Shown one piece after another: positions 32,396 through 44,470 of a stretch of 64,000 bases of DNA. Numbering within the stretch: position 1 is the stretch's first letter; each line of letters begins with the position of its first letter. Under the pieces are notes generated by a model, which had not been told where the DNA came from, searched no databases, and was given only the letters and a program-made list of their open reading frames with translations. Made by a program: the position numbers and the translations under genes. The stretch comes from Chondrosia reniformis (taxonomy: Eukaryota > Porifera > Demospongiae > Chondrillida > Chondrillidae): assembly GCA_947172415.1 (NCBI GenBank), contig OX359193.1, positions 7,372,501-7,436,500 of the forward strand, in the 5' to 3' direction.

Positions 32396-33330
32396 TATAA
32401 CGGGCCTAGTTGAAATATCGATCATAGACATTAATATCGTGCAGGCGATAAATATCGGACCTCTCACTATATCTAGTTTTCTGTATAATGAAAAGTCGCT
32501 CTCCTCCCTCCACCAAGACACATACAGGCTTTTATCCATTTGCCACAGTTTTGAGATGTATTGGAAATACTGCGTATGTGTGTAAAATTGCTTGCAACGA
32601 TTCACTGGTCTGGAATTAAAGTGGAATAAATTGACGATTTCTCGAAAATAATTGGGATCAGAAAAGTCGTTCTCCTCGGCCCATCAAGACACTTAGAGGA
32701 TTTTTTCGCTTTTCCCAGTTTTCAGGTGAACCACTAATACTGCCTATGTCTTTAAACTTGCTTGAAACAATTCACTGATCTGCAAAAAACGAGAAATATA
32801 TTAAAAATCGTCCCAACCACAACCGTTTTCTTTGGACAAAACTTCATATAAATAGGAGCGAAAAACCTTATATAGTAGGCCTACCTGGACACATCTCTAT
32901 GGTGGTTGCGGTTCCCATAGAGGTTGGTAGCGCTTAGACTCTGAAGCTGTCTCCTAATCGGTTGGTGCCATAGAGACGTGCTCACCAATAATCCGGATTT
33001 CGGGGGGGTTCCACGTAATGTGGGATTGGCATCTGATATCTTAGGATTCATATGAGTCGGCCATATCGAGAAGAACTGGTTCTTCTCACGCAAGTGACAC
33101 CCAAAGCTCAACTCGGCAGAGCGTTACCACCGATCCCGGCCTATGAGCGTCGTGGATGGTAGCGTTCGGTATGGTCCAACTTTTTTTCTTTGGAGTTTCG
33201 TTGGCTGTCGATTGACGAAATTTCACTTTAACGAGATCCATATAAAATATATGGATAGGGAGTACCTCAATAACAATCAAGTACTACACAGTGCATATCC
33301 ATATGTATAAAAAATTGGAAAGTATTCTAG
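32396..33330 (+). mobile_element. Satellite-associated element, copy 1 (diverged)
   Basis: This copy aligns with 39530-40545 and 42075-43038. Its left half is strongly diverged (recognisable blocks: AGAAAAGT.G.TCTCCTC, ATCAAGACACTTA.AGGATT, CCAACCACAA). The centre is nearly identical, and the right end shares CAAGTACTACACAGTGCATATCCAT and GTCGGCCAT.TATAGTATTACGCAAT. No transposase, no clear terminal inverted repeats and no target-site duplication were found. Calling it mobile is inference from repetition. Confidence 0.5.
32866..33187 (+). ncRNA. Candidate Pol III-type RNA gene, copy 1
   Basis: A ~300-nt core differs from the other two copies at only about 2-3 positions while its flanks differ far more. 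It is preceded by a TATA-like TATATAG (32870-32875) and TATAAATA (32847), and ends at T7 (33181-33187). It contains stable inverted repeats: CTCTATGG (32895) with CCATAGAG at two later sites, and an 8-bp hairpin GAGAAGAA/TTCTTCTC at 33068-33087. It matches no RNA class I know. Confidence 0.3.
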
Positions 33331-33450
33331 ATATTTTAGATATAGTATGGAATTTCTGTCTTTATTATAATATACCTTCTAACGGTCGGCCATATATAGT
33401 ATTACGCAATTTTCTTTAACAAAAGAGTACAATTAACTGTAGTTCTGTAA
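33331..33450. other. AT-rich junction between element copy 1 and the main satellite array
   Basis: Unique AT-rich sequence, including the element's right edge (GTCGGCCATATATAGTATTACGCAAT at about 33385-33410). The satellite resumes at about 33450. Confidence 0.5.
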
Positions 33451-36400
33451 CTCTATCAAATGGAGAGATATGAAGCTAATTCTTTGTGTCAGCATTCACA
33501 GACATCTATAGAACATGTCCAATGGGTTTTTGAAATTTTGATGAAACTTATAATTTGCCCTATCTCTCACCATACATTAACTTTGTATACCACATTTTAA
33601 TGTACATTGGGTGCTGTAACTCTATCCAATGGAAAGATATGAAGCTACTACTTTGTGTCAGCATTCACAGACATCTATAGAGCATGGCCATTGGGTTTTT
33701 GAAATTTTGATGAATCTTAAAATTTTCCCTATCTCTCACCATACATTAACTTTGTATACCACATTTTAATGTACATTGGGTGCTGTAACTCTATCAAATG
33801 GAAAGATATGAAGCTACTTCTTTGTGTGAGCAATCAAAGACATCTATAGAGCATGGCCATTGGGTTTTTGAAATTTTGATGAAACTTATAATTTGCACTA
33901 TCTTTCACCATACATTTACTTTGTATACCACATTTTAATGTACATTGGGTGCTGTAACTCTATCAAATAGAGAGATATGAAGCTACTTCTTTGTGTGAGC
34001 AATCAAAGACATCTATAGAGCATGTCCAGAGAGGTTTTGAAATTTTGATGGAATTTAAAATTTGCCCTATCTCTCACTATACATAAACTTTGTATACCAG
34101 AATTTAATGTACATTGAGGGCTGTCACTCTATCAAATGAAGAGATATGAAGCTAAACCTTTTTGTCAGCATTCAGAGACATCTATAGAGCATGTCCAATG
34201 GGTTTTTGAAATTTTGATGAAACTTAAAATTTGCCCTATGTCTCACTATACATTAATTTTGTATACCACATTTTAATGTACACTGGGTGCTGTAACTCTA
34301 TCAAATAGAGAGATATGAAGCTACTACTTTGTGTCAGCATTCACAGACATCTATAGAGCATGGCCATTGGGTTTTTGAAATTTTGATGAATCTTAAAATT
34401 TGCCCTATCTCTAGATCTCACCATACATTTACTTTGTATACCAGAATTTAATGTACATTTAGGGCTTTAACTCTATCAAATGAAAAGTTACGAAGCTACC
34501 ACATTGTGTGAGCAATCACAGGCATCTATAGAGCATGTCCAAAGAAGTTTTGAAATTTTGATGGAATTTAAAATTTGCCCTATCTCTCACTATACATAAA
34601 CTTTGTATACCAGAATTTAATGTACATTGAAGGCCGTCACTCTATCAAATGAAGAGATATGAAGCTAAACCTTTGTGTCAGCATTCACAGACATCTATAG
34701 AGCGTGTCCAATGGGTTTTTGAAATTTTGATGAAACTTATAATTTGCCCTATCTCTCACCATACATTAACTTTGTATACCACATTTTAATGTACATTGGG
34801 TGCTGTAACTCTATCCAATGGAAAGATATGAAGCTACTACTTTGTGTCAGCATTCACAGACATCTATAGAGCATGGCCATTGGGTTTTTGAAATTTTGAT
34901 GAATCTTAAAATTTGCCCTATCTCTCACCATACATTAACTTTGTATACCACATTTTAATGTATATTGAGGGCTGTCACTCTATCAAATGAAGAGATATGA
35001 AGCTAAACCTTTGTGTCAGCATTCACAGACATCTATAGAGCGTGTCCAATGGGTTTTTGAAATTTTGATGAAACTTATAATTTGCACTATCTTTCACCAT
35101 ACATTTACTTTGTATACCACATTTTAATGTACATTGGGTGCTGTAACTCTATCAAATAGAGAGATATGAAGCTACTTCTTTGTGTGAGCAATCAAAGACA
35201 TCTATAGAGCATGTCCAGAGAGGTTTTGAAATTTTGATGGAATTTAAAATTTGCCCTATCTCTCACTATACATAAACTTTGTATACCAGAATTTAATGTA
35301 CATTGAGGGCTGTCACTCTATCAAATGAAGAGATATGAAGCTAAACCTTTTTGTCAGCATTCAGAGACATCTATAGAGCATGTCCAATGGGTTTTTGAAA
35401 TTTTGATGAAACTTAAAATTTGCCCTATGTCTCACTATACATTAATTTTGTATACCACATTTTAATGTACACTGGGTGCTGTAACTCTATCAAATAGAGA
35501 GATATGAAGCTACTACTTTGTGTCAGCATTCACAGACATCTATAGAGCATGGCCATTGGGTTTTTGAAATTTTGATGAATCTTAAAATTTGCCCTATCTC
35601 TAGATCTCACCATACATTTACTTTGTATACCAGAATTTAATGTACATTTAGGGCTTTAACTCTATCAAATGAAAAGTTACGAAGCTACCACATTGTGTGA
35701 GCAATCACAGGCATCTATAGAGCATGTCCAAAGAAGTTTTGAAATTTTGATGGAATTTAAAATTTGCCCTATCTCTCACTATACATAAACTTTGTATACC
35801 AGAATTTAATGTACATTGAGGGCTGTCACTCTATCAAATGAAGAGATATGGAGCTAAACCTTTTTGTCAGCATTCAGAGACATCTATAGAGCATGTCCAA
35901 TGGGTTTTTGAAATTTTGATGAAACTTAAAATTTGCCCTATGTCTCACTATACATTAATTTTGTATACCACATTTTAATGTACACTGGGTGCTGTAACTC
36001 TATCAAATAGAGAGATATGAAGCTACTACTTTGTGTCAGCATTCACAGACATCTATAGAGCATGGCCATTGGGTTTTTGAAATTTTGATGAATCTTAAAA
36101 TTTGCCCTATCTCTAGATCTCACCATACATTTACTTTGTATACCAGAATTTAATGTACATTTAGGGCTTTAACTCTATCAAATGAAAAGTTACGAAGCTA
36201 CCACATTGTGTGAGCAATCACAGGCATCTATAGAGCATGTCCAAAGAAGTTTTGAAATTTTGATGGAATTTAAAATTTGCCCTATCTCTCACTATACATA
36301 AACTTTGTATACCAGAATTTAATGTACATTGAGGGCTGTCACTCTATCAAATGAAGAGATATGAAGCTAAACCTTTGTGTCAGCATTCACAAACATCTCT

Positions 36401-37550
36401 AGAGCGTGTCCAATGGGTTTTTTGAAATTTTGATGAAACTTATAATTTGCCCTATCTCTCACCATACATTACCACATTTTAATGTACATTGGGTGCTGTA
36501 ACTCTATCCAATGGAAAGATATGAAGCTACTACTTTGTGTCAGCATTCACAGACATCTATAGAGCATGGCCATTGGGTTTTTGAAATTTTGATGAATCTT
36601 AAAATTTTCCCTATCTCTCACCATACATTAACTTTGTATACCACATTTTAATGTATATTGAGGGCTGTCACTCTATCAAATGAAGAGATATGAAGCTAAA
36701 CCTTTGTGTCAGCATTCACAGACATCTATAGAGCGTGTCCAATGGGTTTTTGAAATTTTGATGAAACTTAAAATTTGCCCTATCTCTCAACATACATTAC
36801 CACATTTTAATGTACATTGAGGGCTGTAACTCTATCCAATGGAAAGATATGAAGCTACTACTTTGTGTCAGCATTCACAGACATCTATAGAGCATGTCAA
36901 AAGAGGTTTTGAAATTTTGATGGAATTTAAAATTTGCCCTATCTCTCACTATACATAAACTTTGTATACCAGAATTTAATGTACATTGAGGGCTGTCACT
37001 CTATCAAATGGAGAGATATGAAGCTAAACCTTTGTGTCAGCATTCACAGACATCTATAGAGCATGTCCAATGGGTTTTTGAAATTTTGATGAAACTTAAA
37101 ATTTGCCCTATCTCTCACTATACATTATCTTTGTATACCACATTTTAATGTACATTGGGTGCTGTAACTCTATCCAATGGAAAGATATGAAGCTACTACT
37201 TTGTGTCAGCATTCACAGACATCTATAGAACATGTCCAATGGGTTTTTGAAATTTTGATGAAACTTGAATTTTGCCCTATCTCTTACAATACATAAACTT
37301 TGTATACCAGAATTTAATGAACATTGAGGGCTGTCACCCAATCAAATGGAGAGACATCAAGCTAAATCTTTGTGTCAGCATTCACAGACATCTATTAAAC
37401 ATGTCCTATGGGTTTTTGAAATTTTGATGAATCTTAAAATTTGCCCTATCTCTCACAATACATTAACTTTGTATACCACATTTTAATGTACATTGAGGGC
37501 TGTCACTCTATCAAATGAAGAGATATGAAGCTAAATCTTTGTCACAGACA
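33450..37550 (+). repeat. Main satellite array, forward orientation, 169-bp monomer with higher-order structure
   Basis: About 24 tandem monomers with period 169 bp; TCTATC occurs at 33452, 33621, 33790, 33959 and 34128. A higher-order period of ~1,190 bp (7 monomers) is visible: the block at 33959 recurs at 35149, and a variant with an inserted TAGATC near 34411 recurs at 35600 and again 513 bp later near 36113. Neighbouring monomers therefore differ more than monomers one higher-order unit apart. Confidence 0.95.
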
Positions 37551-39529
37551 TCTCATTGGAAATGTTTCATACATGTCTGTGAATGCTGACAGCAAGTTTG
37601 AGCTTCATATCTTTCCATTTGACAGAATTAGAGCACCAAATGTACATTCATATACTGGAATACCAAATTAATGTATAGTGAGAGATAGGGCAAATGTAAA
37701 GATTTATGAAAATTTCAAATTGTCATTGGAAATGTTTCATACATGTCTGTGAATGCTGACAGCAAGTTTGAGCTTCATATCTTTCCATTTGACAGAGTTA
37801 GAGCACCAAATGTACATTAATATACTGGAATACCAAATTAATGTATAGTGAGAGATAGGGCAAATGTAAAGATTTATAAAAATTTCAAAAACTCTTTGGA
37901 AATGATTCAATCATGTTTGTGAATGCTGACACCAAGGTTTAGCTTATTAACTTTCCATTTTACAGAGTTATAGTACCAAATGTACATTAAAGTATTGGTA
38001 TACGAAATTAATGTATGGTGAGAGATAGGGCAAATGTAAAGATTTATGAAAATTTCAAATTGTCATTGGAAATGTTTCATACATGTCTGTGAATGCTGAC
38101 AGCAAGTTTGAGCTTCATATCTTTCCATTTGACAGAGTTAGAGCACCAAATGTACATTCATATACTGGAATACCAAATTAATGTATGGTGAGAGATAAGG
38201 CAAATGTAAAGATTTATGAAAATTTCAAATTCTCATTGGAAATGTTTCATACATGTCTGTGAATGCTGACAGCAAGTTTGAGCTTCATATCTTTCCATTT
38301 GACAGAGTTAGAGCACCAAATGTACATTAATATACTGGAATACCAAATTAATGTATGGTGAGAGATAGGGCAAATGTAAAGATTTATGAAAATTTCAAAT
38401 TGTCATTGGAAATGTTTCATACATGTTTGTGAGTGCTGACACCAAGGTTTAGCTTATTAACTTTCCATTTTACAGAGTTATAGTACCAAATGTACATTAA
38501 AGTATTGGTATACCAAATTAATGTATGGTGAGAGATAGGGCAAATGTAAAGATTTATGAAAATTTCAAATTGTCATTGGAAATGTTTCCTACATGTCTGT
38601 GAATGCTGACAGCAAGTTTGAGCTTCATATCTTTCCATTTGACAGAGTTAGAGCACCAAATGTACATTAATATACTGGAATACCAAATTAATGTATAGTG
38701 AGAGATAGGGCAAATGTAAAGATTTATGAAAATTTCAAATTGTCATTGGAAATGTTTCATACATGTTTGTGAGTGCTGACACCAAGGTTTAGCTTATTAA
38801 CTTTCCATTTTACAGAGTTATAGTACCAAATGTACATTAAAGTATTGGTATACGAAATTAATGTATGGTGAGAGATAGGGCAAATGTAAAGATTTATGAA
38901 AATTTCAAATTCTCATTGGAAATGTTTCATACATGTCTGTGAATGCTGACAGCAAGTTTGAGCTTCATATCTTTCCATTTTACAGAGTTAGAGCACCAAA
39001 TGTACATTAATATACTGGAATACCAAATTAATGTATAGTGAGAGATAGGGCAAATGTAAAGATTTATGAAAATTTCAAATTGTCATTGGAAATGTTTCAT
39101 ACATGTTTGTGAATGCTGACACCAAGGTTTAGCTTATTAACTTTCCATTTTACAGAGTTATAGTACCAAATGTACATTAAAGTATTGGTATACGAAATTA
39201 ATGTATGGTGAGAGATAGGGCAAATGTAAAGATTTATGAAAATTTCAAATTCTCATTGGAAATGTTTCATACATGTCTGTGAATGCTGACAGCAAGTTTG
39301 AGCTTCATATCTTTCCATTTGACAGAATTAGAGCACCAAATGTACATTAATATGCTGGAATACCAAATTAATGTATAGTGAGAGATAGGGCAAATGTAAA
39401 GATTTATGAAAATTTTAAATTCTCATTGGAAATGTTTCAAACATGTCTGTGAATGCTGACGTTAAGTTAAAGCTTCATATCTCTCCATTTGACAGAGCTA
39501 CAGCACTCTAATGTACATTAAATTTCTAG
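37551..39529 (-). repeat. Satellite array, inverted orientation, 170-bp monomer
   Basis: About 12 monomers in reverse orientation relative to 33450-37550. AGCTTCATAT falls at 37601, 37771 and 38111, with the AGCTTATTAA variant at 37941, giving period 170. Two alternating subtypes are present (GACAGCAAGTTTGAGCTTCATAT and GACACCAAGGTTTAGCTTATTAA). The switch at about 37550 is abrupt. Confidence 0.95.
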
Positions 39530-40545
39530 TAAACGACCTTAAATGGGTGTAGCATATATATCGTGCGATACTATTTTGCAAATTATCGGCATACGAAGTT
39601 AAAATGTTTTGACATGAATGGGGCAACTAGAAACACGCAGGGACAGTCCAGAACGCAGCTGTCAGAAGGTCTTTACATAGAGGCAGGTAGCCATTATGCT
39701 ATTACTGCAATTGAGATTGAGTGTGGCTGGTTATACCAGTTTACGTTCATATCGGAACACCTCTCGCTAAAATCGTTTCTACATGGGACCAGAAAAGTTG
39801 GTCTCCTCCGCCAATCAAGACACTTACAGGATTCTATCCATTTTTCCCAGTTTCTAGATGAACCACGAATACTGGATATACCTTTAAAATGGCTTGGAAC
39901 GATGCACTCATCCCGAATTAACTTGATATAATTTGACTACATTTTTCTCGCAAATACCCTATTCTTAAGTATGGAATAGCGCCAACCACAATCGTTTCCT
40001 TTTGAAATTTTCTTGTTTAAATAGAAGCGCAAAACCTTATAAAGTAGGCCTACCTGGACACATCTCTATGGTGGTAGCGGTTCCCATAGAGGTTGGTAGC
40101 GCTTAGACTCTGAAGCTGTCTCCTAATCGGTTGGTGCCATAGAGACGTGCTCACCAATAATCCGGATTTCGGGGGGGTTCCACGTAATGTGGGATTGGCA
40201 TCTGATATCTTAGGATTCATATGAGTCGGCCATATCGAGAAGAACTGGTTCTTCTCACGCAAGTGACACCCAAAGCTCAACTCGGCAGAGCGTTACCACC
40301 GATCCCGGCCTCTGAGCGTCGTGGATGGTAGCGTTCGGTATGGTCCAACTTTTTTTCTTTGGAGTTTCGTTGGCCGTCGATCGGCAAAATTTCACTTTAA
40401 CGACATCCATATAATATATGTGGATAGAAACTGCTTCAACAACAATCAAGTACTACACAGTGCATATCCATGTGTATAAGAAATCTTTCAAAGAGTTCTA
40501 TTTTTTCAGAAATATATACAGTACGGCATGTTCACTCTTACACCG
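39530..40545 (+). mobile_element. Satellite-associated element, copy 2
   Basis: Nearly identical to copy 3 (42075-43038) over ~0.95 kb, starting at AAACGACCTTAAATGGG. It carries 10 bases near 39560 that copy 3 lacks, and a longer right end (to GGTCGGCCATTTATAGTATTACGCAAT). Flanked by inverted-orientation satellite on both sides. A frame of 105-122 codons (39563-39931) is kept in both copies, but they are too recent for this to mean coding. Confidence 0.55.
40036..40356 (+). ncRNA. Candidate Pol III-type RNA gene, copy 2
   Basis: Same core as at 32866. Here the upstream box is a perfect TATAAAG (40038-40044), about 25 nt before the CTCTATGG stem (40064), and the T7 tract is at 40350-40356. 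An upstream block CCAACCACAA (39982) is shared with copy 1 although surrounding bases are not. Confidence 0.3.
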
Positions 40546-42074
40546 ACTCAAGGTCGGCCATTTATAGTATTACGCAATTAGGGTTAGTTAATGTATGATG
40601 AGAAATTTATGTAGAAATCAAAATTTCTAAAACTGTTTGGAAATGTTTCATACATGTCTGTGAATGTAGACACAAAGTTTAAACTTCATATTTAGCCATT
40701 TGACAGAGTTACAGCACTAAGTGTACATTGTATTAAGAAAATGTATGGGGAAAGATAGGGTAAATTTATGTAAAAATCAAAATTTCTAAAACTGTTTGGA
40801 AATATTTCATACTTGTATGTGAATGTGGATACCAAGTTTAAGCTTCAAATTTACCAATTTGACAGAGTTACATCACTAAATGTACATGTAAGTTAATGTA
40901 TGGTGAGAGATAGGGCAAATGTAAAGATTTATGAAAATTTCAAATTGTCATTGGAAATGTTTCCTACATGTCTGTGAATGCTGACAGCAAGTTTGAGCTT
41001 CATATCTTTCCATTTGACAGAATTAGAGCACCAAATGTACATTAATATACTGGTATACGAAATTAATGTATGGTGAGAGATAGGGCAAATGTAAAGATTT
41101 ATAAAAAATTCAAAAACTCTTTGGAAATGATTCAATTATGTTTGTGAATGCTGACACCAAGGTTTAACTTATTAACTTTCCATTTTACAGAGTTATAGTA
41201 CCAAATGTACATTAAAGTATTGGTATACGAAATCAATGTATGGTGAGAGATAAGGCAAATGTAAAGATTTATGAAAATTTCAAATTGTCATTGGAAATGT
41301 TTCATACATGTCTGTGAATGCTGACAGCAAGTTTGAGCTTCATATCTTTCTATTTGTCAGAGTAAGAGCACCAAATGTACATTCATATACTGGAATACCA
41401 AATTAATGTATGGTGAGAGATAGGGCAAATGTAAAGGTTTATGAAAATTTCAAATTGTCATTGGAAATGTTTCATACATGTCTGTGAATGCTGACAGCAA
41501 GTTTGAGCTTCATATCTTTCCATTTGACAGAGTTAGAGCACCAAATGTACATTCATATACTGGAATACCAAATTAATGTATGGTGGGAGATAAGGCAAAT
41601 GTAAAGATTTATGAAAATTTCAAATTCTCATTGGAAATGTTTCATACATGTTTGTGAGTGCTGACACCAAGGTTTAGCTTATTAACTTTCCATTTTACAG
41701 AGTTATAGTACCAAATGTACATTAAAGTATTGGTATACGAAATTAATGTATGGTGAGAGATAGGGCAAATGTAAAGATTTATGAAAATTTCAAATTGTCA
41801 TTGGAAATGTTTCCTACATGTCTGTGAATGCTGACAGCAAGTTTGAGCTTCATATCTTTCCATTTGACAGAATTAGAGCACCAAATGTACATTAATATAC
41901 TGGAATACCAAATTAATGTATAGTGAGAGATATAGGGCAAATGTAAAGATTTATGAAAATTTCAAATTCTCATTGGAAATGTTTCAAACATGTCTGTGAA
42001 TGCTGACGTTAAGTTAAAGCTTCATATCTCTCCATTTGACAGAGCTACAGCACTCTAATGTACATTAAATTTCT
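40546..42074 (-). repeat. Satellite array, inverted orientation, between element copies 2 and 3
   Basis: About nine monomers of the 170-bp unit. The first two (about 40580-40880) are strongly diverged variants; the rest match the subtypes of 37551-39529, including the alternating TTTAGCTTATTAA form. Confidence 0.9.
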
Positions 42075-43038
42075 AGTAAACGACCTTAAATGGGTGTAGC
42101 ATATACTATTTTGCAAATTATCGGCATACGAAGTTAAAATGTTTTGACATGAATGGGGCAACTAGAAACACGCAGGGACAGTCCAGAACGCAGCTGTCAG
42201 AAGGTCTTTACATAGAGGCAGGTAGCCATTATGCTATTACTGCAATTGAGATTGAGTGTGGCTGGTTATACCAGTTTACGTTCATATCGGAACACCTCTC
42301 GCTAAAATCGTTTCTACATGGGACCAGAAAAGTTGGTCTCCTCCGCCAATCAAGACACTTACAGGATTCTATCCATTTTTCCCAGTTTCTAGATGAACCA
42401 CGAATACTGGATATACCTTTAAAATGGCTTGGAACGATGCACTCATCCCGAATTAACTTGATATAATTTGACTACATTTTTCTCGCAAATACCCTATTCT
42501 TAAGTATGGAATAGCGCCAACCACAATCGTTTCCTTTTGAAATTTTCTTGTTTAAATAGAAGCGCAAAACCTTATAAAGTAGGCCTACCTGGACACATCT
42601 CTATGGTGGTAGCGGTTCCCATAGAGGTTGGTAGCGCTTAGACTCTGAAGCTGTCTCCTAATCGGTTGGTGCCATAGAGACGTGCTCACCAATAATCCGG
42701 ATTTCGGGGGGGTTCCACGTAATGTGGGATTGGCATCTGATATCTTAGGATTCATATGAGTCGGCCATATCGAGAAGAACTGGTTCTTCCCACGCAAGTG
42801 ACACCCAAAGCTCAACTTGGCAGAGCGTTACCACCGATCCCGGCCTCTGAGCGTCGTGGATGGTAGCGTTCGGTATGGTCCAACTTTTTTTCTTTGGAGT
42901 TTCGTTGGCCGTCGATCGGCAAAATTTCACTTTAACGACATCCATATAATATATGTGGATAGAAACTGCTTCAACAACAATCAAGTACTACACAGTGCAT
43001 ATCCATGTGTATAAGAAATCTTTCAAAGAGTTCTATTT
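42075..43038 (+). mobile_element. Satellite-associated element, copy 3
   Basis: Recent duplicate of copy 2 at an offset of 2,535 bp, including the last satellite monomer before the element (GACGTTAAGTTAAAGCTTC variant). It is cut at TTCTATTTTTT and joined directly to forward-orientation satellite. Confidence 0.55.
42571..42891 (+). ncRNA. Candidate Pol III-type RNA gene, copy 3
   Basis: Core identical to copy 2 apart from a few substitutions, such as TTCTTCCC in the hairpin near 42790. TATAAAG lies upstream (42573), the CTCT stem at 42599 and T7 at 42885-42891. Confidence 0.3.
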
Positions 43039-43563: not shown

Positions 43564-44470
43564 TGTATACGTAGACACACGTAAACATACGTAGACACAC
43601 GTAGACATACGTAGACATACGTAGACATACGTAGACATACATAGACATACGTAGATATACTTATAGACTTACTTATATATGTCTACGTATGTCTACGTAT
43701 GTCTACGTATGTCTACGTATGTCTATAAGTATGTCTACGTATTTCTATACGTGTGTCTACGTATGTCTACTTGTGTCTTCGTATGTCTAGGTATGTCTAT
43801 ACGTATGTCTACGTATGTCTACGTGTGTCTTCGTATGTCTACGTATGTCTATAAATATGTCTACGTATGTCTGCGTATGTCTACGTGTATCTACGTATGT
43901 CTACGTGTGTCTACGTATGTCTACGTGTGTCTTCGTATGTCTACGTATGTCTATAAATATGTCTACGTATGTCTGCGTATGTCTACGTGTATCTACGTAT
44001 GTCTACGTGTGTCTACGTATGTCTACGTGTGTCTACGTATGTCTACGTGTGTCTACGTATGTCTACGTGTGTCTACGTATGTCTACATATGTCTATAAGT
44101 ATGTCTACGTATGCCTATTCGTATGTCTACGTATGTCTACTTATGTCTACGTATGTCTACGTATGTCTATAAGTATGTCTACGTATGTCTATAAGTATGT
44201 CTACGTATGTCTACGTATGTCTACGTATGTCTACGTATGTCTATTCGTATGTCTACGTATGTCTATTCGTATGTCTACGTATGTCTACGTATGTCTACGT
44301 ATGTCTATACGTATGTCTACGTATGTCTACATTTGTTCACCCATGTCTCCGTATATATGTCTATGTATTTATGTCTACGTATGTCTACATTTGTTTACGT
44401 AGGTATACGTATGTCAACGTTTGTCCACCTATGTCTACCTATATGTCTACGTATGCATATGTCTACGTAT
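43564..44470. repeat. Decanucleotide microsatellite TACGTATGTC, with an inverted left arm
   Basis: About 90 units of GTCTACGTAT and close variants (GTCTACGTGT, GTCTATAAGT). The first ~100 bp (43564-43665) run in the reverse sense (GTAGACATAC) and the rest forward, so the left end forms a large palindrome centred near 43670. It sits within one satellite monomer: the satellite is interrupted at CCAATG and resumes at ATTTGCCCTATCTC (44471). Long open frames of Ser-Thr-Tyr-Val repeats here are artefacts. Confidence 0.95.

Follow-up and report, generated by a model that had tools for sequence, protein, structure and literature searches.

Results

A near-invariant core repeated in a satellite

The stretch of Chondrosia reniformis DNA analysed here (64 kb; hereafter the window) contains three copies of a core of about 310 nt that appears to be a repeated gene of this sponge. 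Copy 1 is located at positions 32866–33187, copy 2 at 40035–40356, and copy 3 at 42570–42891; an earlier note on this DNA had placed copy 1 correctly and the starts of the other two one nucleotide off. Compared with copy 1, copy 2 differs at 3 of 322 positions (99.07% identity) and copy 3 at 5 of 322 (98.45% identity), which bears out the description in that note of an almost invariant core in three satellite-embedded copies. The family proved to be far larger. A 24-mer from the core, searched with up to three mismatches, was found at 893 places in the genome (440 + 453), whereas the reversed 24-mer gave none in the same search, indicating that the core block is no chance match. This number is about a hundred times that of the matches for U1 (at least 7), U5 (at least 8), or SRP RNA (at least 1). 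Among the 40 best-scoring copies of a DNA search, a sample biased by the ordering of the list by score, 38 were 100% identical across the full 322 nt. When 30 loci were picked via the similarity of their 3′ flank (40 scored), 27 carried a full or near-full core with 97.8–100% identity; L041 and L054 matched only part of the core, and the core of L065 was 91.6% identical because of an insertion. Damaged copies exist, with L041 being devoid of the promoter and L054 and L076 disrupted. A 5-nt deletion is common to two adjacent copies on contig C1 (L037, L038, L047, and L048).

For the comparison of copies, we used 88 fragments from 82 different places in the genome, spread over 10 contigs; 70 of the fragments are distinct and come from 69 places. 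Some were chosen by their match to the core, others by a flank match or by their genome place as given in the core list. L054 and L076, with no BLAST piece of the core of at least 271 nt, are absent from the alignment, as are cores found only in part at the ends of loci. L041, L080 (offset −21), and L037 (offset −14), whose 5′ end is cut or replaced, did not enter the counts of variants, distances, and trees. Across the 70 distinct fragments, the 20-nt bins between 32886 and 33185 showed a per-column diversity of 0.000–0.028, versus 0.05–0.36, in most cases above 0.14, for the bins outside the core. Thus, the whole element of about 1 kb is not equally conserved, a point that the earlier note had asked to be checked. 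Near-invariance begins at 32875, and the flanks of different lineages differ by 21–58% on average. The observed/expected ratio of CpG is 0.885 in the core and 0.362 in the window.

Putative promoter and terminator

Upstream of the core lies a PSE (proximal sequence element), CAACCACAANCGTTT, followed by the TATA-like box TAAATAG 35 nt past the PSE start. In copy 1, the PSE (CAACCACAACCGTTTT) occupies 32814–32829 and the box 32849–32855, at about −28. Copy 2, a member of lineage B, carries the PSE CAACCACAATCGTTTC at 39983–39998 and the box at 40018–40024, again 35 nt past the PSE start. In copy 3, also of lineage B, reading of the sequence in register with copy 2 places the PSE at 42518–42533 and the box at 42553–42559. 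These features, like the start-proximal sequence, the terminator, and the predicted RNAs described below, lie on the plus strand. The PSE had been missed in the earlier note, which took TATATAG/TATAAAG for the TATA box. That sequence belongs to a start-proximal element (CCTTATATAGT, 32866–32876 in copy 1) adjoining the predicted start, and TAAATAG is the better candidate. Thirteen of 14 displayed copies, all but L068, retain the start-proximal CCTTATA, and some further copies deviate from it.

A PSE matrix built from four of the seven U1 and four of the eight U5 genes of the same genome gave scores of 18.6 for copy 1 and 16.3 for copy 2, compared with a null maximum of 9.7 (414 windows). The U6atac and RNase P genes scored 20.4 and 16.7, respectively. 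This PSE is missing from the U6, MRP, and SRP genes of the genome (scores of 3.3, 0.3, and −2.7), all of them established or presumed Pol III genes, and is therefore no marker of all Pol III genes here. The exact PSE together with the exact start region occurs at 827 places in the genome. Of the 68 distinct fragments having upstream sequence, 67 contain TAAATAG and 66 the PSE, the latter arguing against a SINE. The spacing from PSE to box was 35 nt in all 66 distinct fragments with both boxes. It is likewise 35 nt in U6atac and 28–30 nt in U1 and U5 (counted by eye); for RNase P, 35 nt is one of two readings, as TTTAAAT is also found at offset 24. The U6atac gene (G000:C13:6345854–6345975) shares with the core gene a close PSE, the same TAAATAG, an external promoter, and a T-run end, but encodes a different RNA of 122 nt and gave only one genomic match. 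Judged by its boxes and their distance, the promoter layout is that of the U6atac (Pol III) gene of the sponge, unlike that of its U1/U5 genes. A Pol II snRNA gene of the U1/U5 type, or a spliced-leader RNA, does not fit the spacing of 35 instead of 28–30 nt and the T6–7 end.

As stated in the earlier note, the core ends in a run of seven T residues (33181–33187 in copy 1), presumably the Pol III terminator. According to a script, the longest T run comprises 6 or 7 residues in 68 of the 70 distinct fragments; the remaining two (L065 and L070) have an insertion, and alignment shows T7 in them as well. In lineage C, the run is displaced by one base and is still T7. The consensus sequences of lineages A, B, and C differ at 3–4 of 313 transcript positions and by 53–72% in the upstream region, gaps counted. 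Between the same lineages, the PSE differs at 1–2 of 18 positions and the TATA-like box at 0–1 of 12, with 7–9 differences in the 16 positions of the spacer between them (about 50% diverged). Such islands around a diverged spacer would not be expected from a single conversion tract.

A predicted structured RNA

With the start set 63 nt past the PSE start, after U6atac, the predicted RNA of copy 1 spans 32877–33187 (305–311 nt) and consists of three structural domains followed by U7. This assignment draws on the start, the near-invariance, the fold, and the variant test. The predicted RNAs of copies 2 and 3, at 40046–40356 and 42581–42891, include the respective T7 runs (40350–40356 and 42885–42891). 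The predicted fold covers the whole transcript, with −109.5 kcal/mol and a z score of −1.97; equally good energies were obtained for 5 of 100 shuffled sequences, so the fold is only modestly better than these. In a test that scores changes singly, without any indels and without three types of T-tract substitution, 3 of 21 substitution types on the plus strand disrupt the fold versus 10.1 expected (P = 0.00025). The minus-strand control gave 7 disrupting types versus 7.5 expected (P = 0.50). Of the changes falling on a pair, 6 of 9 keep pairing, which is weakly above chance (P = 0.036). According to this model, natural variants spare the predicted fold on the plus strand only. The earlier note had envisaged a bistable fold involving two CCATAGAG sites. 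Such a fold is disfavoured by copy L078, in which a U–A to C–G change at 32896/32921 is compatible with the first CCATAGAG site only.

By eye, a string resembling a tRNA D-arm is seen near 33106–33123.

Because of the U6atac-like promoter, the constant 35-nt spacing, the T6–7 end, and the strand-specific result of the structure test, the core is best read as a type-3 Pol III gene. The proposal in the earlier note of a new RNA of this class is thus supported at the sequence level, including by the promoter comparison with RNase P, U1, and U5.

Satellite setting and exchange between copies

Tandem Repeats Finder detected a 169-bp satellite array after copy 1 (33445–37533) and a 170-bp array, broken by the copy 2 cassette, at 37553–42068. 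By eye, both arrays consist of the same satellite in opposite orientations, and the opposite orientation was measured around the fetched lineage B copies. Satellite is present on at least one side of all 86 core matches examined and on both sides of 81. Inverted repeats in two units are weak (71–81%), and no convincing terminal repeats, as transposon ends, were found.

Exchange between copies is visible in a non-trivial TA insertion of 2 nt that is found in both lineage A and lineage B. On the flank trees, it needs 9–10 changes, which may be an overestimate, as these trees lack support values. The insertion and the variant at 33143 occur in all four possible combinations. Furthermore, uniformity shifts sharply at the 5′ end of the core and within about 45 nt of its 3′ end. 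These features, together with the constant satellite neighbourhood, would also suit a selfish satellite gene, i.e., a Pol III cassette that spreads for itself with no gain for the host and whose transcript or cDNA templates conversion. With templating of this kind, uniformity would be expected to end where the transcript does. Templating does not account, however, for the conservation of the PSE and the TATA-like box, which lie outside the transcript, and the possible overcount on the flank trees weakens the case further. We regard a purely selfish element as rather unlikely.

Comparison with known RNAs

At the gathering score, Rfam gave no match in the whole window. A cmscan of 32780–33260 against all 4,227 Rfam families with E values up to 10 returned solely mir-981, a chance match at 33180–33235 over the T run and the 3′ flank. 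Variant copy L070 matched frnS weakly over the 3′ part of its core (E = 0.19; 26.8 bits versus a cut-off of 60). In loci L070 and L080, Rfam also reported a tRNA with an overlapping weak match of the mascRNA type. There is no convincing Rfam family match for the core RNA, in accordance with the earlier note, which had seen no likeness to known RNAs. The Metazoa_SRP model does not match the core, and one SRP RNA (7SL) gene was found at C6:5012651–5012946. RNase P and RNase MRP were rejected likewise (RF00009 and RF00030, no match in the core; genes at C6 and C13), and the U1, U5, U6, and U6atac genes sit elsewhere in the genome. A blastn comparison of the core with U1, U5, U6, U6atac, SRP, MRP, and RNase P gave no match with E up to 1. 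To see whether the core is antisense to another repeat, as 4.5SH is to B1, it was compared by blastn with the remainder of the window, which yielded matches of 11–12 nt only. ARAGORN (bacterial code) found no tRNA in the whole window. A protein-coding function was rejected: the longest open reading frame in the core encodes 76 aa on the minus strand with a TTG start, and 2-nt insertions recur among the copies. An 18-mer of the core matched three prokaryote contigs, the exact match ending at 18–19 nt, with about seven chance matches calculated; viral contigs gave no match. A literature search over titles and the openings of abstracts retrieved none describing this RNA, which is no proof of absence.

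A further reading is that the core RNA belongs to an established family (7SK, telomerase RNA, Y, vault, or a U-RNA), from which it has diverged strongly while its gene became multicopy. 7SK fits the core RNA in size and promoter class. For telomerase RNA, there is a precedent in Hymenoptera, in which the genes moved to type-3 promoters and are presumably read by Pol III (PMC9841428). Besides the cmscan and frnS results and the separate location of the SRP, RNase P, MRP, U1, U5, U6, and U6atac genes, the following observations speak against such an origin. The Rfam model of 7SK does not match the core up to E = 10, telomerase RNA gave no Rfam match to the core, and by eye the core contains no TTAGGG/CCCTAA-type template and only one GATC. 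Divergence from a known family, a diverged sponge 7SK included, is very improbable.

Discussion

The core is probably the transcribed part of a new multicopy family of type-3 Pol III RNA genes, shaped by purifying selection and by exchange between copies, as far as genomic sequence allows this to be judged. In this view, RNA polymerase III would transcribe each intact copy as a small gene, with the snRNA-activating complex bound to the PSE at about −63 and TBP/TFIIIB to the TAAATAG box at about −28. Transcription would begin near 32877 and stop in the T7 run. The product would be an RNA of about 305–311 nt with three stable domains and an oligo-U tail. The 169-bp satellite houses roughly 890 copies, many of them clustered, which unequal exchange probably multiplies together with the satellite. 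Purifying selection on the promoter boxes, the RNA fold, and the terminator may then, together with copy exchange, keep the gene uniform while its flanks drift. As selection on each of about 890 copies would be weak, homogenisation must contribute. The earlier note had offered purifying selection or core-limited gene conversion as alternatives; both components are retained, and both appear to act. Gene conversion alone, with the core as a functionless hot spot, would account for the visible exchange but not for conserved islands around a diverged spacer at a fixed 35-nt distance, an equally long T run in a shifted register, or strand-specific preservation of the fold, and is extremely improbable.

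A more specific version of the gene family reading can be put forward only tentatively. The RNA might be an unrecognised, abundant, structured sponge RNA with rDNA-like copy number in a satellite. RNA- or cDNA-templated exchange across chromosomes might restore uniformity within the transcript limits, with selection guarding the promoter boxes.

Parallels exist among other multicopy Pol III genes. 5S rRNA genes are uniform Pol III genes in diverged spacers that undergo concerted evolution, but 5S rRNA is universal, has about 120 nt and an internal type-1 promoter, and, unlike it, the core RNA has no Rfam match. Human snaR RNAs are clustered, lineage-specific Pol III RNAs as well, derived from Alu and with an internal promoter. 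The rodent 4.5SH RNA genes are lineage-restricted and number in the hundreds, every copy lying within a long tandem repeat unit (4–5 kb; PMC10137851). 4.5SH RNA comprises about 100 nt, derives from 7SL, and has internal A and B boxes. The core RNA is about three times longer, its PSE promoter is external, and no parent of it is known.

Most likely, the product of the proposed gene family would be a structural RNP RNA made in large amounts, with gene number determining its level as it does for 5S rRNA and rodent 4.5SH. If expressed, it may be one of the cell's major non-ribosomal RNAs. The comparison with U6atac, U1, and U5 suggests a spacing rule in a sponge, with 35 nt for Pol III and 28–30 nt for Pol II snRNA-type genes. 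Moreover, the satellite here carries a gene that looks functional. The family comprises hundreds of gene copies whose flanks have diverged strongly and represents a natural experiment on concerted evolution, allowing the effects of selection to be told apart from those of sequence exchange at each position.

Copy number and conservation of the core

The earlier note had proposed three copies of a near-invariant block of ~300 nt (the core) as a putative type-3 Pol III RNA gene. All three (copies 1 to 3 at 32866-33187, 40035-40356 and 42570-42891) are real and belong to a larger family. We searched 117,379,552 bases in 15 contigs, of which C1 was the longest seen (10,409,357 bases) and C5 carries the window (7372501-7436500); the published assembly of Chondrosia reniformis, the kidney sponge, is described as 117.37 Mb in 14 chromosomes plus the mitochondrion, with a longest scaffold of 10.41 Mb (PMC12181767). 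A 24-mer of the core, allowing up to three mismatches, matched 893 places genome-wide versus none for its reversed control. The family thus comprises about 890 copies. The exact proximal sequence element (PSE) combined with the exact start region occurred at 827 places. On C1, 67 of the 70 places of the 24-mer were also in this second list (counted from both lists), which is not nested in the first and holds C1 places absent from it. Some copies are broken: L076 carries one core in two pieces more than 1 kb apart, and other sequence replaces the promoter in L041.

Conservation was examined in an alignment of 70 distinct fragments, representing 69 genome places. The mean diversity per 20-nt bin was 0.000-0.028 within 32886-33185 and 0.05-0.36 outside the core, where the majority of bins exceeded 0.14. 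The upstream edge is marked by a sharp drop in diversity at 32875. At the other end, ~43 nt 3' of the terminal T run (33188-33230 and equivalents) are intermediate, with 4-7 differences in 43 between lineage consensuses, and are better kept than the remaining flank. The flanks define three lineages, A, B (including copies 2 and 3) and C, represented by 49, 7 and 9 of the 70 fragments; the other five, cut or altered, were left unassigned. Of the composite promoter matches, the first 100 in the list were sorted by eye: 63 belonged to A, 23 to B, 12 to C and 2 to a fourth type, D. Mean pairwise differences upstream were 42% (A-B), 56% (A-C) and 58% (B-C), and those downstream 21-24%, compared with core differences of 1.1-1.4%. 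On average, copies of lineage A differed from one another by 4.9% upstream and 0.5% in the core. Thus, the contrast between core and flanks holds both between and within lineages. The observed/expected CpG ratio of 0.885 in the core, versus 0.362 in the window, would fit strong constraint or an unmethylated state.

Predicted promoter and terminator

Upstream of the core, two islands are near-constant among copies, while the DNA between them varies. The first, CAACCACAANCGTTT (32814-32828 in copy 1, + strand), resembles the PSE of the U1 and U5 genes of the same genome; of eight such PSEs read, four were exactly CAACCACAAGTGTTTT and four differed from it at 1-4 positions. The second is the TATA-like box TAAATAG (32849-32855, + strand). 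Their spacing was 35 in all 66 distinct fragments carrying both boxes. U6atac is transcribed by Pol III, and its gene in this genome ends in a T run; its PSE starts at -63, with TAAATAG 35 nt after the PSE start. The start predicted from the U6atac distance, 32877, adjoins the conservation step at 32875. The genes for U1 and U5 are usually read by Pol II; there the PSE sits at -58, and the box follows at 28-30. RNase P has TAAATA at 35 from the PSE start, but also TTTAAAT nearer, at 24. The offsets of U6atac, U1, U5 and RNase P were counted by eye. For land plants, polymerase choice is reported to be set by the USE-TATA distance (PMC9841428). A simple rule is, however, challenged by the upstream regions of U6 (L084), MRP (L095) and SRP (L086), in which no such PSE was found. 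The sponge may have two upstream element types, with the PSE in U1, U5, U6atac, RNase P and the new element and absent from U6, MRP and SRP.

The 3' end of the conserved block is a T7 run (33181-33187 in copy 1). In lineage C, two substitutions move the run by one base and its length is still T7. Our script found T6 or T7 in 68 of 70 distinct fragments; in the other two, L065 and L070, an insertion pushed the run beyond the scripted range, and the alignment shows T7. This insertion, 19-25 nt in the third domain of the predicted fold near 33118, is accompanied by further shared changes close by, and L054 likewise has a core match rich in gaps; these copies may represent a separate variant of the RNA. 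The copy in L070 is isolated and has a tRNA gene (55 bits; 656-728, - strand) in its vicinity.

Predicted fold

For 32875-33186 (312 nt), the predicted energy was -109.5 kcal/mol (z -1.97; 5 of 100 shuffles were as good). Three domains close in succession: the first pairs the 5' end with GGUAGCGCUUA, the second is closed by GACUC/GAGUC, and the third finishes directly before AACUUUUUU. On this fold we placed, each singly, 21 substitution types among copies, which are data independent of the prediction, if not all independent events. Twelve were unpaired, six pair-keeping and three pair-breaking, versus 10.1 breaks under random placement of the same changes (P = 0.00025); the complementary-strand fold gave 7 breaks versus 7.5 expected. 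The keep rate at paired positions (6/9, P = 0.036) is weaker evidence alone. Locus L078 carries a change on both sides of a pair, from U-A to C-G at 32896/32921, and L069, L073 and L077 carry the U-G intermediate. Of the two alternative partners that the earlier note suggested for CTCTATGG, the first is favoured by this pair change.

Apparent exchange between copies and satellite setting

A 2-nt TA insertion at 33042 is present in both lineages A and B, needing 10 changes on the upstream and 9 on the downstream flank tree (trees without support values); the insertion and a variant at 33143 are found in all four combinations. Copies therefore seem to exchange sequence, but exchange on its own does not account for two preserved islands on either side of a diverged spacer.

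A 169-bp satellite was present on at least one side of all 86 core matches examined (from fetched loci, some being the same place seen twice) and on both sides of 81. Among these 81, the satellite on both sides had the gene's orientation in 76 and the opposite one in 4; the remaining 1 was mixed. Of the five matches with one satellite-free side, the locus end truncates three (L037 and, twice, L080) but not the other two (L012, L041). Upstream of the core, the distance to the satellite is ~473 nt for most A copies, ~512 nt for four of five fetched B copies and 146 nt for C, so about 100 nt of promoter sequence would seem to be enough. The upstream flank of copy 1 (32490-32802) contains an internal duplication of ~170 nt (72-78%), near the satellite period, and 10-bp repeat arrays of ATACGTAGAC and TATGTCTACG at 43567-44470 adjoin the last satellite block.

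Identity of the element

The core does not look protein-coding. The PSE upstream of 66 of 68 distinct fragments speaks against a SINE. Rfam searches of the window, the core region and loci L070 and L080 gave no convincing match for the core; seven named RNAs were found at other places in the genome. The genome sequence predicts a new family of RNA genes whose type, type-3 Pol III, is already known. The closest architectural precedent is the rodent 4.5SH RNA genes, described as numbering in the hundreds within tandem repeats of 4-5 kb and reported to counter toxic exonization of antisense B1 (PMC10137851); they differ from the sponge element in promoter and origin. With its rDNA-like copy number, satellite-borne location and external promoter, the element would represent an unusual form of type-3 Pol III gene.
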